Position numbers and translations under genes: made by a program. A DNA stretch of 33,026 nt, taken from contig JALOLC010000023.1 of NCBI GenBank assembly GCA_025456175.1, forward strand, positions 1 through 33,026, given 5' to 3'. Positions 10,333 to 31,960 of this stretch are shown piece by piece (the first letter of the stretch is position 1; every line of letters starts with the position of its first letter). The notes under the pieces are model-generated. The model was given only the letters and a program-made list of their open reading frames with translations. It was not told the origin of the DNA and did no database searches. Origin of the DNA: Acidobacteriota bacterium (GTDB lineage: Bacteria > Acidobacteriota > Aminicenantia > UBA2199).

Positions 10333-11368
10333 ATTTCAGCTCCTTCAGGGTGTCCTGCATTCTGCCGATCTCCTGGGAGATCTTTTCCAGCACCTTCTCG
10401 GTCACGAATTTGCAGCTCATCGATATGGCGTTCTTGATGGCCTTGGCGTTGGAGCCGCCATGGCCGATGATGACGATGCCGTTGACGCCCAGCAGCAGGG
10501 CGCCGCCGTACTCGGAATAATCCAGCTTCTTTTTGATGCGCTTGAGCGATTTTTTCAGGAAAAAGAAGCCGATCTTGGAGAAGATGTTGGACATGATCTC
10601 GCGCTTCAGCATGGAAAGCATGGCTTCCACCACCCCCTCGGAGACCTTGAGCGTGACGTTGCCGGTGAAGCCGTCGGTCACGATCAAGTCGGCCTCGCCG
10701 ATGTAGACGTCGCGGCCCTCGACGTTGCCGATAAAGTTGATGTCGAGCTGCTTGAGCAGGTTGTGGGTGGTCTTGGTCAATTCGTTGCCCTTGACCTCCT
10801 CCTCGCCGATGTTCATCAGGCCGATGCGGGGTTTTTCGATGCCGAGGATGTTTTCCAGGTAGATCTTGCCCATCAGGGCGAATTCGACCAGATTGTGCGG
10901 CTTGGATTCGGTGTTGGCGCCGACGTCGACCAGCAGTGAGTTGCCCTTCAGTGTGGGCAGCATGATGGCCAGGGCCGGGCGGTCGATGTTCTTCATGGTG
11001 CCCAGCACGTTCTTGGCCAGGGCCATGACCGCCCCGGTGTTGCCCGCCGAGACCATGGCCGAGGCCCTGCCGTTCTTGACCAGGTCGATGGCCTTCTTGA
11101 TGGACGTCTTTTCGCGCTTGCGCCAATAGGAGAGGAAATGCTCCTTCATCGAGATCTCCTCCAGGGCGTCGACGATCTCCAGCCGGTCGAGGCGGACGTT
11201 GCGGTACTTTTTCAGCTCCCGGTGGATCTCCTTTTCCTTTCCGACCAGGACGATCTTGAAGCTCTCGTTTCGGCTGTTCTCGCGCAGGTATTCGATCACG
11301 CCCTCGATGACGATCTCGGGGGCATGGTCGCCGCCCATGGCGTCGACGGCGATGCGGACCGCTTCCAT
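10325..11368 (-). CDS. plsX: Phosphate acyltransferase
   Basis: PlsX makes acyl-phosphate from acyl-ACP for phospholipid synthesis at the cytoplasmic membrane. The 347-residue product begins with the hallmark IAVDAMGGDHAP and contains SAGNTGAVMALA, LLVDVGANTESKP, MNIGEEEVKGNE, VTDGFTGNVTLK and YGGALLLGVNGIVIIGHG, all characteristic of the family. It starts 6 bp after the rpmF stop and overlaps fabG by 8 bp. Confidence 0.95.
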   Translation of the reverse strand: MEAVRIAVDAMGGDHAPEIVIEGVIEYLRENSRNESFKIVLVGKEKEIHRELKKYRNVRLDRLEIVDALEEISMKEHFLSYWRKREKTSIKKAIDLVKNGRASAMVSAGNTGAVMALAKNVLGTMKNIDRPALAIMLPTLKGNSLLVDVGANTESKPHNLVEFALMGKIYLENILGIEKPRIGLMNIGEEEVKGNELTKTTHNLLKQLDINFIGNVEGRDVYIGEADLIVTDGFTGNVTLKVSEGVVEAMLSMLKREIMSNIFSKIGFFFLKKSLKRIKKKLDYSEYGGALLLGVNGIVIIGHGGSNAKAIKNAISMSCKFVTEKVLEKISQEIGRMQDTLKELKYV

Positions 11369-12157: not shown

Positions 12158-12310
12158 GGTAAACGGTTTACGGTGCACGGTAAATAAAGGCAAAAGGAAA
12201 AAGGCAAAAGAAAAAAGAAAATCACTTTTCCCCGTGAAAAGAACATGCATTTTTTTTAGGAGGACTTCTTAAACTTTGTACTTTTGCCTTTTGCCTTTTT
12301 CCTTTGCCTT
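12158..12310. repeat. Heptamer-array region with inverted repeat
   Basis: From 12158 the sequence runs as 7-bp units GGTAAAC, GGTTTAC, GGTGCAC, GGTAAAT, then AAAGGCA, AAAGGAA, AAAGGCA, AAAGAAA, AAAGAAA. The far end (12281-12310) is the inverted version, units of type TTTTGCC/TTTTTCC, pairing with 12186-12210 across a 70-bp loop. GTAAAC-G-GTTTAC (12159-12171) is itself a perfect dyad. The right arm reaches the stop codon of the anti-sigma gene and lies where its transcript would end. No gene is visible in this gap. Confidence 0.8.
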
Positions 12311-13029
12311 CATAACTCGTCGATCTTGCGGATCATGTCCCTGGCCTTGCCGGCCATGGGGCTGAGCATGCCGGCCAGCTTGGCGAATTGGGCGCGGGCC
12401 TCGGGGAGTCGGCCCTGGCGCAGCCGGATGAACCCCTTGTAATAGAGCGCCTCGTCGAAATAGGCCGGGTTCATGTCGCGAATGATGGCGTCGAATATCG
12501 CTTCCGCCCCTGCCAACTGGTCCGTCTCAAGGTAGCAGATGGCGCGGAAGAAGGCAGCCTTGGGGAGGGCGGCGGCGGATAAAACCGGTCCCTCGAAGAG
12601 GTCGAGGGCGGCGCGGAAGTCCCGGTCCTGGTAGTGGCGCATGGCCAGGGAGAACTGTTCTTCCCAGCCGCGGGCGCTCTCCGCTTCCCCGCGCATTTCG
12701 CCCTGGTGATACAAGGGGAGATCGAAGCGGGCAAGCTCGCGAAGCTGACCGGCCCTACGGTCCCGCTGCACCAGCAGTGCGGAGAACAGGACGAGCAGGA
12801 ACAGCGCGGCCATGGCCAACAGCGGGCGCAGGACCTTGAATGTGAAGAGGCGCGGTGGATCGTTCAGTTGGATGCGCGCCCCCTTGTTCCGCAGCGACTC
12901 ATTGATCTTCAGCCCGAGAAAACACTGGCGGCAGGCGAAGAAATGCTCCTCGAACTGCTCGCGCCTGGACTCCTCGATCGTTTCCCCGAGATAGGCCGTG
13001 ATCAATCCCTGGAATTCATGGCATTTCAT
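12310..13029 (-). CDS. Membrane anti-sigma factor with zinc-finger N-terminus and TPR-like C-terminus
   Basis: The 239-residue protein starts after GAGGGA, 14 bp after the sigma gene. Residues 1-45 form an anti-sigma zinc-finger domain with H29-x3-C33-x2-C36, the ZAS signature that holds ECF sigma factors inactive. Residues about 67-87 are one strongly hydrophobic membrane helix followed by QRDRR. Residues about 125-239 form TPR-like helical repeats (FRAALDLFEG, AGAEAIFDAI, PEARAQFAKL). Topology would place the zinc finger in the cytoplasm and the TPR part outside, a typical sensor arrangement. Adjacency to the ECF sigma gene supports an anti-sigma role. What it senses is unknown; the secreted CHAT protease encoded divergently is a candidate partner. 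Confidence 0.75.
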   Translation of the reverse strand: MKCHEFQGLITAYLGETIEESRREQFEEHFFACRQCFLGLKINESLRNKGARIQLNDPPRLFTFKVLRPLLAMAALFLLVLFSALLVQRDRRAGQLRELARFDLPLYHQGEMRGEAESARGWEEQFSLAMRHYQDRDFRAALDLFEGPVLSAAALPKAAFFRAICYLETDQLAGAEAIFDAIIRDMNPAYFDEALYYKGFIRLRQGRLPEARAQFAKLAGMLSPMAGKARDMIRKIDEL

Positions 13030-13043
13030 GTTCCCTCATCCAT

Positions 13044-13595
13044 TCAATAAAGGTTTTTCCTGGATATCTCAGCGCGGATCTTCTTGAGGGCCCGCTCCTT
13101 GCGCACGCTGACATAGTGCGGCGAGCGGCCGGTCATGTCGGCGATCTCGCCGATCTTGCGCTCCTGAAAGTAGAACGCGTCCAGTATCTCCCGGTCGATG
13201 CGCGGCAGTTTCTGGATCAGCCCGCTCAGGACCTGGCCCAGTTTCTCGTTGTCCAGCCTCTCGGCCTCGCTGAAGCTGCTGCTCAGCTCGCATTGGGCGC
13301 AGATGTTCTTCTGGATGTCATTGCTCTTTTTCTGACGGTAGAAGTAGTTGTACATGACGCGCCTGGCGATGCCGAAGATGAAGGGGGCAATCCAGTCCGC
13401 GCCGGCCAGCTTGCCCTGGTCGAGGCCGTGGAAAAAGGCGCTGAAAACCTCCTGCACCAGGTCTTCGTAGCTGCTCTCGCCCTTGATGCGGTTGCGGAAA
13501 TAGACGAAAATGCGCGGATTGAACGTCTGGATCAGCTCTTTCTGCGCTTGCGGATCGCCGGCACGCAGCCTGGCGAAGAACCGTTCTTCGTCCAT
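13044..13595 (-). CDS. ECF-type RNA polymerase sigma factor
   Basis: The 183-residue protein has the two-domain ECF layout. Region 2 is at about residues 20-85 (YEDLVQEVFSAFFHGLDQG, then IFGIARRVMYNYFYRQKK, the -10-binding and DNA-melting part). Region 4 is at about 125-178 (LPRIDREILDAFYFQERKIGEIADMTG with a helix-turn-helix, then VRKERALKKIR). There is no sigma 3 domain. The start lies 3 bp after the upstream TGA without a ribosome binding site, so it is probably translated by coupling. The downstream anti-sigma gene is its likely partner. The GATAAT promoter upstream looks like a housekeeping type, so autoregulation is not evident. Confidence 0.9.
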   Translation of the reverse strand: MDEERFFARLRAGDPQAQKELIQTFNPRIFVYFRNRIKGESSYEDLVQEVFSAFFHGLDQGKLAGADWIAPFIFGIARRVMYNYFYRQKKSNDIQKNICAQCELSSSFSEAERLDNEKLGQVLSGLIQKLPRIDREILDAFYFQERKIGEIADMTGRSPHYVSVRKERALKKIRAEISRKNLY

Positions 13596-13598
13596 CGC

Positions 13599-13991
13599 TC
13601 AGGTAATGGGCGCCAGGTCCTTTTCCAAGACGTTGTCGCGGGGATCGACTTCGGGGAATGCGCCCTCCCCGTTCACGACCATGCGGATCTTCAGCGGCTG
13701 TTGGGCCCGGAAGTTGGTCTTGAGCACGATGAGGCTGCGCTTCAAAAAAATGGCCGGATCAACGGCCTTGGCCAGGTATTCGGCCCTCTTGACGCCGTTG
13801 ACGAACAAGCTGATGAAAACCCGCTCACGAAGGGTCGGGAGCAGGGCGAAGTCCTGGGCAGAAGTGTTTTCGATCCTCAGGGCGATGAATCCGTCCTGGA
13901 GCACCAGGATGTCTCGGGCCTTGAAGTTCGGCGCTTCGCCGGCAGCGAGGATCCCGTTCGCCAGGAGCAGGAACAGAAGCAGCTTTCTCAT
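13599..13991 (-). CDS. Small secreted protein, possibly CARDB-like, leading the sigma operon
   Basis: The 130-residue protein has a clear signal peptide (MRKLLLFLLLANGILAAGEA), so it is exported. The rest looks like a single beta-sandwich: alternating hydrophobic strands (FIALRIENTS, VFISLFVNGV, LKIRMVVNGEG) and an ending VDPRDNVLEKDL, which resembles the VDP-N-V-E pattern at the end of CARDB adhesion-type domains. That assignment is tentative. AAGGAGGAG precedes the ATG. It is the first gene of the operon, 3 bp before the ECF sigma gene, which suggests a role in the same signalling circuit, perhaps as a ligand or accessory of the periplasmic part of the anti-sigma protein. Confidence 0.65.
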   Translation of the reverse strand: MRKLLLFLLLANGILAAGEAPNFKARDILVLQDGFIALRIENTSAQDFALLPTLRERVFISLFVNGVKRAEYLAKAVDPAIFLKRSLIVLKTNFRAQQPLKIRMVVNGEGAFPEVDPRDNVLEKDLAPIT

Positions 13992-14027
13992 TGCACCTTC
14001 TCCTCCTTAGATTACGGATACTATTCC

Positions 14028-14056
14028 ATTATCTCGTTTTCTGCAACCCATTGCAA
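14028..14056 (-). promoter_or_regulatory. Promoter of the secreted protein-sigma-anti-sigma operon
   Basis: On the minus strand TTGCAA (14056-14051), 17 bp, GATAAT (14033-14028). Predicted start is near 14021, giving a leader of about 30 nt with AAGGAGG. The -35 is a palindrome shared with the divergent CHAT promoter. Confidence 0.6.
14042..14055. promoter_or_regulatory. Dyad TGCAA-CCCA-TTGCA, possible operator
   Basis: A perfect 5-bp inverted repeat with a 4-bp centre overlaps the shared -35 element. With one mismatch the symmetry extends by three further bases on each side. A dimeric regulator bound here would cover both divergent promoters. This is inference from symmetry only. Confidence 0.4.
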
Positions 14057-14079
14057 AAAAATGCCGCTTCTCCTATAAT
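14051..14079 (+). promoter_or_regulatory. Promoter of the CHAT protease gene
   Basis: TTGCAA (14051-14056), 17-bp spacer, perfect TATAAT (14074-14079). The ATG at 14088 is only 8 bp after the -10, so transcription should begin at or just before the start codon, giving a nearly leaderless mRNA. Confidence 0.65.
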
Positions 14080-14087
14080 CCCAGGCT

Positions 14088-15604
14088 ATGAAGCGTGGGT
14101 TGAGCATCGTATTTGCCCTGATCCTGCTGATTTTTCCGAGGATGGCGGAGAATTCCACGCCGGAAGGGATTTTGCCCCGGCTGAAGCTGGATATCGCCGT
14201 CATCATCGAGGGCCTTCTCTCTTGCTACGAGCGGGGCGGTGAGCCCCGTTTCCTGGAGATGGCGCTGCGCCTGTCCGAGATCAAGACCCATCCGTTGTTC
14301 GAGCTGGAGTGGGGCAGGCATCCCGGCAACGCGGCGGCAACTGCCCGCCCGGCGAAAGCGAGCGGCGCTTGTGCCGGTTGGCGCAGGATTACATCCGCGT
14401 CAACGACCGCTCCGCGGCTTCCGCCCGCATGGCGGCGCTGGATTTCTCCGCATCCAGCATCCTCGACCAGTTGCAGAAAAGCCTGTCCCCCTCTCAGTTG
14501 CTGCTGAAATACATCATGCTGGGAGACCGCGTGCTCCTCATTTTCATCGGCTCCGGCCATGCCGGCTTCGAATTCCTTGCGGTCGGTCGCGCTCAACTCG
14601 ATGCCATGGTGCGGCAGTTGTGCGAGCCGCTGGAGGATTTCGCCAGCGGCAAGGTCGATTACCTGCGCATCCACTTCGACATGGCATTGGCCAACCGCCT
14701 GCACAATGTTCTGCTGAGAAACGTTTCGCTGCGGTTTCCGCATGCCGATGACATGCTAGTCATTCCCGACGGATCGCTCTATACCCTGCCTTTTGAGGCA
14801 CTGGTGACCGGTTTCAACGGCCGCCTTGGGCAGGATGATGCCCTTTTTTCCGAGTATCAGGCGGCCGAATACGTGATCCAGGACTACAAGGTGTCCTATT
14901 TCTTTTCCTTCTCCGATTTTTTGCGCCGTTTTCAGATCCGAGGCGATTATCCGCTTGCCCTGGCCGCCTTCGGCCACCCATTGCTGCCCCCATCGGGCCA
15001 GCGGGAAGCGCTGAAGGGCATCGCCGACATTCCCTCGACGCGGCTGGAGGTCCAGAACCTGGAGACGCTGTTCAGCGGCCAGCCCCGGCGCATCTTCATG
15101 GGTGCCGACTTCAACTGGGAGAATTTCGCCCGCTTCGCCCCCCAGGCCAAGCTGATCCATCTGGCCAGCCATTTTTTCGGCAACGGCAAGGACCCTTCGC
15201 GCTCGTCCTTCTTGTTCTCCGCCTCAGGGGGGACGCCGGTCTTCTGCGAGGCCAGGAAACTCTTCGATCTCCAGCTGCAGGCCGAGCTGATGATCCTCAG
15301 TGCCTGCGAAACCTCGGAAAAAAACCTGCTGGGATTCCGCCTGTTGAGCGGCTGGACGGCGGCGATCCGCCGGGCCGGGGTCAGGAACCTGATTGCCAGC
15401 CTCTGGCCGGTGGACGAATTCAGCTCCCAGGTCGTGCCCTTGTTTTACCGCGATTTCCTCGGCTGCGGCGACAGCGCCGCGGCCCTGAGGCATTCCAAGC
15501 TGGTCCTCCTGAACCGGACCATCTCCCTGCGCGGCGGAATGCGCATGGCGCTGGCCCACCCATTCCTGTGGGCCAACTACGTTCTCTATCGCTTCTGCCG
15601 CTGA
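14088..15604 (+). pseudogene. Secreted CHAT-domain protease, frame broken near base 14330
   Basis: The first part (from 14088) encodes a signal peptide (MKRGLSIVFALILLIF...) and a helical segment up to about THPLFELEW. From about 14315-14345 the homologous reading continues in another frame, open to 15604. The second part contains a CHAT (caspase-like) peptidase domain. LVIPDGSLYTLPFEAL lies near 14755, LIHLASHFF carries the catalytic His (codon 15170) and LSACETS the catalytic Cys (codon 15305). GVRNLIASLWPVDE and FYRDFL follow, all hallmark CHAT segments. Thus the dyad is intact, but the gene as read needs a frameshift; the segment CGGCAAC occurs twice near the break, consistent with slippage or a small deletion. 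CHAT proteins often cleave dedicated partners. The divergent sigma/anti-sigma operon with a shared promoter region suggests a joint pathway. Confidence 0.75.
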
Positions 15605-28829: not shown

Positions 28830-28851
28830 AAGACCTACGTGACACGTAACG

Positions 28852-28990
28852 CGTGACGCGTTATGCGAAGGGAAATAAGCGACTACGTGATGTGTAATGC
28901 GTGATGCGTTATGTGAAAGAAGAAGAAAATATCCTTTTCTTTCTCATCACGCATAACGGAGTTCTGGAAGCTCGTTCACACATCACGTAG
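28852..28990. repeat. Dispersed 139-bp repeat, copy A, with terminal inverted repeats
   Basis: This copy is about 93% identical (9 differences by eye) to the reverse complement of 31810-31948. Its inner part, 28883-28990, is bounded by perfect 13-bp terminal inverted repeats CTACGTGATGTGT and ACACATCACGTAG. The sequence from about 28837 is a heptamer array of type CGTGACG/CGTAACG/CGTTATG. It fills the gap between the convergent ends of the phosphorylase and rsmB genes and could act as terminator for both. Confidence 0.9.
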
Positions 28991-31772: not shown

Positions 31773-31798
31773 GAACTCCGTGATGCGTGATGAGAAAG
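31773..31798. repeat. 26-bp partial copy of the dispersed repeat
   Basis: GAACTCCGTGATGCGTGATG and the next 6 bases match 31836-31861 of copy B with one mismatch, in the same orientation. It lies immediately upstream of the def -35 box, so the repeat material abuts the promoter. Confidence 0.8.
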
Positions 31799-31809
31799 GC
31801 ATAATTAGC

Positions 31810-31948
31810 CTACGTGATGCGTGAACGAACTTTCAGAACTCCGTTATGCGTGATGAGAAAGAGAAGGATACTTTCTTCTTCCTTCACATTACGCATCACG
31901 CATTACGCATCACGTAGTCGCTTATTTCCCTTCGCATAACGCATCACG
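31810..31948. repeat. Dispersed 139-bp repeat, copy B, with terminal inverted repeats
   Basis: This is the reverse-oriented partner of 28852-28990. The inner 108 bp (31810-31917) have 13-bp terminal inverted repeats CTACGTGATGCGT and ACGCATCACGTAG. Relative to copy A the T-A pair at position 11 is C-G, a compensatory change on both arms. It sits between the divergent def and mutL promoters. The arms again consist of heptamers. Confidence 0.9.
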
Positions 31949-31960
31949 CATCACGATGCG

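Follow-up and report, generated by a model that had tools for sequence, protein, structure and literature searches.

A 33,026-nt stretch of an Acidobacteriota genome (the window; contig JALOLC010000023.1 of assembly GCA_025456175.1) carries a divergent block of four genes. A CHAT protease gene lies on the plus strand, and the minus strand encodes a small exported protein, an extracytoplasmic function (ECF) sigma factor and an anti-sigma factor with a zf-HC2 zinc finger, a transmembrane segment and a TPR domain. Conserved linkage, joint loss and association across the phylum make a common pathway of CHAT, sigma and anti-sigma very probable. We read the block as a single envelope-signalling pathway in which CHAT would act as activator, most likely by cutting the anti-sigma, and give this fuller reading an even chance.

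Conservation of the block and its association across the phylum

On the minus strand, transcription runs from the gene of the 130-aa exported protein (13991-13599) through the ECF sigma gene (13595-13044), which starts 3 nt further on, to the gene of the 239-aa anti-sigma (13029-12310), 14 nt past the sigma gene. The window corresponds to contig C101 of a 73.5% complete genome in 188 contigs, whose relatives are Candidatus Aminicenantes metagenome-assembled genomes (MAGs; Acidobacteriota). The CHAT gene of the window is the sole PF12770 match in this genome.

The first-pass annotation had proposed a CHAT gene divergent from a three-gene sigma operon as a signalling unit, with co-occurrence in related genomes as its check. 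The unit is real: the divergent arrangement of all four genes was identical in 11 genomes of the genus, flanked by DUF177/plsX/fabG/acp/fabF on one side and aldolase/fabD/pilM/pilN on the other, although a few contigs stop short of one flank. All four genes were missing at the syntenic site in G019, G025, G026 and G028 of the same genus; the DUF177 to aldolase gap measured 180 bp in G028, and only peptidase-like genes stood between in the other three. By eye, a gene at the unit-less site (L137, L138, L139, L051) resembled an M16 zinc protease, and L138 and L139 held an additional M18-like aminopeptidase gene. G021 kept only the last part of CHAT, a C-terminal stub, and no sigma.

Three further genera of the family carried the block with different flanks (loci L044, L045, L048 and L050), and CHAT, anti-sigma and sigma were separate genes in all family loci. 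Every one of the 20 family genomes with a sigma orthologue, out of 34, also had CHAT; ten had neither and four had CHAT only, one of them a stub (Fisher's test, p = 7.6e-6, uncorrected for phylogeny). Several other apparent CHAT/sigma gaps in the family were contig ends. The idea of a unit thus survived its check, with strong co-occurrence, co-loss and linkage.

A profile built from the CHAT orthologues was run on 396 Acidobacteriota genomes, of which 97 matched. We compared 76 CHAT regions with 40 control regions of the same genomes in counts that ignore phylogeny; sigmas adjoining CHATs served as seeds for the sigma profile, and the identical profile was applied to the controls. An ECF sigma was present in 48/76 CHAT regions versus 8/40 controls (p = 1.2e-5), and the gene of a zinc-finger membrane protein came immediately after it in 35/76 versus 3/40 (p = 1.9e-5). 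An ECF gene lay within 2.1 kb of a TPR-CHAT gene in 46/76 regions compared with 4/40 controls (p = 1e-7). The geometry of CHAT, sigma and anti-sigma varied and could be divergent, convergent or co-directional, the last in the order sigma, anti-sigma, CHAT.

Several families within the class Aminicenantia had a sigma/anti-sigma pair enclosed by two TPR-CHAT genes that face each other. The outer domain of the anti-sigma in these two-CHAT loci was Ig/fn3-like by eye, with no Pfam match, and the zinc finger was the only common part; the partner therefore changes while the CHAT/ECF/anti-sigma association persists.

Convergent TPR-CHAT pairs around ECF/anti-sigma genes were recorded in L115, L119, L123, L125, L126, L127, L140, L144 and L147. 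One CHAT had a C-terminal transmembrane segment in several two-CHAT loci, and its mode of anchoring may thus differ from that of the other. In a Tenacibaculum sp. MAG (Bacteroidota; L076, 4232-10891), an ECF sigma gene diverged from a tandem pair of TPR-CHAT-like genes with C-terminal transmembrane segments, which suggests that the CHAT/ECF association reaches past Acidobacteriota.

The CHAT protein and the products of the sigma operon

PF12770 matched the plus-strand frame 14309-15604 with an E-value of 5e-40 and 138 bits against a cut-off of 24. This part corresponds to a clan CD, separase/Csx29-like CHAT protease domain with intact His and Cys. Both residues were invariant in alignments of 14 orthologues and of 30 diverse CHATs, which argues that catalysis is needed. 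By domain and residues, the protein is classed as a CHAT cysteine protease with predicted proteolytic activity.

An AlphaFold2 (AF2) model of the intact orthologue L036 reached a predicted local distance difference test (pLDDT) score of 80.8 and a predicted template modelling score of 0.85; this model and that of the anti-sigma are single chains. In a Foldseek ranking of PDB entries, the L036 model matched Csx29/TPR-CHAT of type III-E first (E 3e-13 to 3e-9; TM-score 0.49 by query for Csx29 at E 3e-13), then the transmembrane anti-sigma DdvA (8rot, E 3e-10) and then separase. The 30-sequence CHAT profile recovered the same PDB entries by sequence, including the CHAT of DdvA at residues 829-976 (E 5e-9). 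The link to type III-E logic drawn in the first-pass annotation is thus supported by fold, with the CHAT-bearing DdvA next after the best matches. CHAT proteins in other genera of the family measured 560-940 aa, and several of them carry a TPR array at the N-terminus.

As assembled, the CHAT gene of the window is split over two open reading frames (ORFs) in different frames. The first (14088-14507, plus strand), from an ATG at 14088, encodes the signal peptide and N-terminal region and is out of frame after ~14331; the CHAT frame itself has no signal peptide. The first 83 residues of the 5' ORF were 41-62% identical to the aligned N-terminal sequence of intact relatives. DNA comparison with L033, L036 and L032 placed a net 55-nt deletion at 14328-14340 on the plus strand. 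The relatives carry ~55 nt more at ~14331 and read from signal peptide to CHAT without a change of frame (junction e.g. WGKHPGNAKVERELLRGAARSLARFAAGDCPG), and in the window WGRHPGNA is joined to GGNCPPG. The break is therefore either a lesion of the window copy or an error of the incomplete assembly. Frameshifts affected 2/11 same-genus CHAT copies in the MAG assemblies, the second being that of G014 (L040) at the 3' end near 10427, where the break is either an error or decay.

Nine intact orthologues of the genus have signal peptide and CHAT in a single frame; the ORF in relatives is one of 528-553 aa comprising the signal peptide, a helical region of ~130 residues and the CHAT domain. Judged by these in-frame sequences, the signal peptide is genuine and not a mis-start. 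Of the secreted CHAT peptidase first described, the domain, His and Cys stand; the window does not encode it in one ORF, and its export signal survives through the in-frame relatives only.

The ECF sigma factor (13044-13595, minus strand; 183 aa) matched Sigma70_r2 and Sigma70_r4 over the Pfam cut-offs, and the sigma70-ECF model TIGR02937 was also over its cut-off; regions 2 and 4 are the only sigma regions present, as in ECF sigmas. Orthologues were 44-78% identical.

The anti-sigma factor (12310-13029, minus strand; 239 aa) matched zf-HC2 with 26.3 bits against a Pfam cut-off of 22.2, and H29, C33 and C36 of its H-x3-C-x2-C motif were invariant in the 15 sequences of alignment A3. E111-x-R113 was likewise invariant in 15 orthologues. 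The AF2 model (pLDDT 84.9) comprised an N-terminal helical zinc-finger part, one transmembrane helix (approximately residues 69-87) and a TPR domain; the TPR models of Pfam were slightly under their cut-offs, and the fold was visible in the predicted structure, closest to the TPRs of YbgF/BamD/YfgM. Zinc finger, transmembrane segment and a gene placed directly after the sigma gene identify a class I zf-HC2 transmembrane anti-sigma, for which sigma binding and inhibition are predicted. The domain composition given in the first-pass annotation is thereby confirmed, and the position of the TPR domain outside the membrane is predicted: an N-in topology would follow from function, and net charge favoured it in divergent members and was ambiguous in the window copy.

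The first gene of the operon (13599-13991, minus strand) encodes the small protein of 130 aa, which belongs to no recognised family. The expected export signal was confirmed as an N-terminal hydrophobic segment in nearly all members, and the protein is conserved (alignment A2), with no significant Pfam or PDB match. Two candidate identities were rejected: CARDB matched 1/12 members at E 0.12, and homology to the Ig-like outer domain of other anti-sigmas received an hhalign probability of 0.2%. The gene is absent from genus g8 (L050, L069), which keeps CHAT, sigma and anti-sigma, and its hidden Markov model detected no homologue in the CHAT/sigma loci of other families. Because of its absence from g8, the small protein is accessory rather than the core ligand or substrate once suggested, and the core consists of CHAT, sigma and anti-sigma.

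The two transcription units share a divergent promoter region of 96 bp (13992-14087), examined in an alignment of 11 same-genus intergenic regions, with promoters assigned by consensus only. Toward CHAT, TTGCAA (14051-14056) is followed after 17 bp by TATAAT (14074-14079); the genus consensus in this direction is TTG.AAAA, 17 bp and an invariant TATAAT. Toward the sigma operon, CAA at 14044-14046 (TTG on the minus strand) is accompanied by the -10-like TAGTAT at 14018-14023 on the minus strand, and the genus pattern is an inverted CAA with a TA..AT element 20 bp on. A CAA-N4(5)-TTG core and ATCTC were conserved in the 11 regions, with TTATCTC at 14029-14035 as a further conserved element. Judged by consensus, both promoters resemble those of the sigma-70 type.

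Elsewhere in the window, paired short near-repeats of the GTGATGCGT type occurred in both orientations in the downstream part (28846-28919, 31773-31861 and 31881-31955); their spacing and number do not fit a CRISPR array, and no CRISPR-like repeat array was found in the window. PADLOC gave no match for the unit proteins, and identity as a defence system was rejected on that ground.

The proposed pathway and its alternatives

In the proposed pathway, the cytoplasmic zinc finger of the anti-sigma would tether the ECF sigma to the inner membrane, and the TPR domain of the anti-sigma would lie in the periplasm. The exported CHAT, which in sister genera is a TPR-CHAT protease, would share that compartment and serve as activator. 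A signal might be sensed by the TPR part or by partners, after which CHAT would most likely cut the outer or juxtamembrane region of the anti-sigma (the site-1 step). A site-2 protease of the genome could then complete sigma release, and modulation by the small exported protein would be optional. Cleavage of the anti-sigma by CHAT is plausible given the compartment that the signal peptide would let them share, the invariant dyad, the type III-E precedent (PMC10028731) and the presence of CHAT and anti-sigma in the single chain of DdvA. For the site-2 step, two PF02163 (M50) matches over the cut-off were found in the genome; the family is near-universal, so their presence is weak evidence.

A candidate cleavage motif was dropped. 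Juxtamembrane Arg-Gly occurred in 18/33 anti-sigmas linked to CHAT and in 7/57 without such a link (p = 5e-5). However, an anti-sigma family encoded directly after an ECF gene (L306, L307, L311-L314, L316-L318) has a conserved juxtamembrane VRG...LISP, with no CHAT within ~8 kb on either side in the fetched stretches. Since this unlinked family carries the same kind of motif, Arg-Gly is not specific and was not used as a CHAT cleavage site.

Several observations weigh against the proposed pathway. Its candidate juxtamembrane motif is invariant also in anti-sigmas unlinked to CHAT, and ECF autoregulation of the sigma operon is not supported because the operon promoter looks sigma-70-like. As assembled, frameshifts interrupt the CHAT genes of both the window and G014. 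In G010, the homologues of CHAT and sigma are on separate contigs despite the presence of sequence upstream of CHAT, and in G009 no sigma was found to accompany CHAT. Contact between CHAT and anti-sigma, and the cleavage, are inferred.

The last point leaves some room for coupling without proteolysis, in which a periplasmic CHAT sensor or co-inhibitor would bind the anti-sigma, as a split DdvA, and tune its hold on sigma without cutting. The presence of both functions in one chain in DdvA fits such coupling, and TPR domains on both partners would suit binding. The invariance of His and Cys in the 30 diverse CHATs and all 14 orthologues speaks for catalysis instead, and we regard purely non-proteolytic coupling as rather unlikely.

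CHAT could also be the output of the pathway, with sigma driving the divergent CHAT gene and the protease directed at envelope proteins, competitors, or a stress or death programme. ECF regulators often control neighbouring genes, and the divergent genes share the conserved 96-bp region. However, the CHAT promoter, TTGCAA-17-TATAAT, is of sigma-70-type consensus in the genus. Moreover, CHAT is convergent to or downstream of sigma/anti-sigma in other families, so a shared promoter is not what holds CHAT and sigma together. CHAT as output is accordingly considered unlikely.

In a third alternative, CHAT would cut the small exported protein or some other protein of the envelope, and the TPR domain of the anti-sigma would read the fragment as a signal. 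The small protein is exported, conserved and encoded within the sigma operon, but genus g8 retains the other three genes without it and the CHAT/sigma loci of other families yielded no match to its model, which makes this role improbable. That the genes are mere neighbours, inherited vertically with no common function, would fit the synteny of the entire surrounding segment within the genus, but is hardly credible for a block that recurs beside other flanking genes in further genera, is absent as a whole from the syntenic site and belongs to a CHAT-ECF association above control across the phylum.

Cleavage of the anti-sigma by CHAT is retained as the preferred form of the pathway. The caspase-like CHAT proteases of bacteria are abundant and few of their substrates are known; the block offers a specific candidate, a membrane anti-sigma. 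A CHAT protease outside the membrane would turn on genes inside the cell, a logic shown so far only for a CRISPR system.

Comparison with known CHAT and anti-sigma systems

Among known systems, type III-E Craspase (Csx29, Csx30 and CASP-sigma/RpoE) resembles the window unit in coupling a TPR-CHAT fold to an ECF sigma and its inhibitor, and the TPR-CHAT protease fold was recovered here by Foldseek. CHAT cleavage of a sigma inhibitor has been demonstrated in type III-E (PMC10028731). However, Csx29 is cytoplasmic and RNA-activated by Cas7-11, whereas the CHAT of the window unit is exported, and Csx30 is not a zf-HC2 membrane anti-sigma, unlike the window inhibitor. Neither Cas7-11 (gRAMP) nor a CRISPR array was found at the locus, and no Cas genes were noted around the unit.

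In DdvS/DdvA of Myxococcus xanthus (PDB 8rot, 8rw5), a single pathway likewise unites an ECF sigma with a membrane anti-sigma and a TPR-CHAT-like fold; the ECF sigma DdvS has DdvA as its anti-sigma, which responds to an unknown signal (PMC4374960). The CHAT of DdvA sits within the anti-sigma chain, whereas that of the window unit is a separate exported protein, so that anti-sigma domain, transmembrane segment and CHAT are not joined in one chain. The window anti-sigma ends in a TPR domain instead, and the unit has an additional small exported protein. No fused ZAS-TM-TPR-CHAT protein occurred in the phylum sample, nor an N-terminal H-x3-C-x2-C in the phylum CHAT ORFs examined.

According to a review (PMC8999054, citing Casas-Pastor 2021), the ECF54 group has CHAT, subtilase and carboxypeptidase proteins in its genetic context, and proteolytic control was proposed. 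An ECF sigma with a CHAT protein nearby is common to ECF54 and the window unit, but the same review describes ECF54 as having no anti-sigma, whereas the window operon encodes a zf-HC2 anti-sigma. In the open-access papers searched, CHAT, ECF and anti-sigma were found together only for type III-E, and the split exported-CHAT/anti-sigma arrangement was not found there, although an earlier mention as an Acidobacteriota ECF group is possible.

Tentatively, and with less confidence than the pathway in the window, exported TPR-CHATs might serve specifically as site-1 proteases of many ECF anti-sigmas in Acidobacteriota, CRISPR-independent and envelope-facing, with type III-E as a cytoplasmic variant and DdvA as a fused one. 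If true, the logic of type III-E would be one case in a broader class of sigma switches gated by proteases. The split arrangement, a variant of known CHAT/sigma logic, is of interest for its conservation, wide distribution and testability. It also resembles RseA/DegS/RseP and RsiW-type proteolysis, with a membrane anti-sigma that would have a cytoplasmic sigma-binding part and an outer domain, and with a site-2 protease in the genome. In the RseA/DegS/RseP system, site-1 cleavage is performed by a PDZ-serine protease, whereas the putative site-1 cleavage of the window unit would be carried out by a clan CD CHAT protease.

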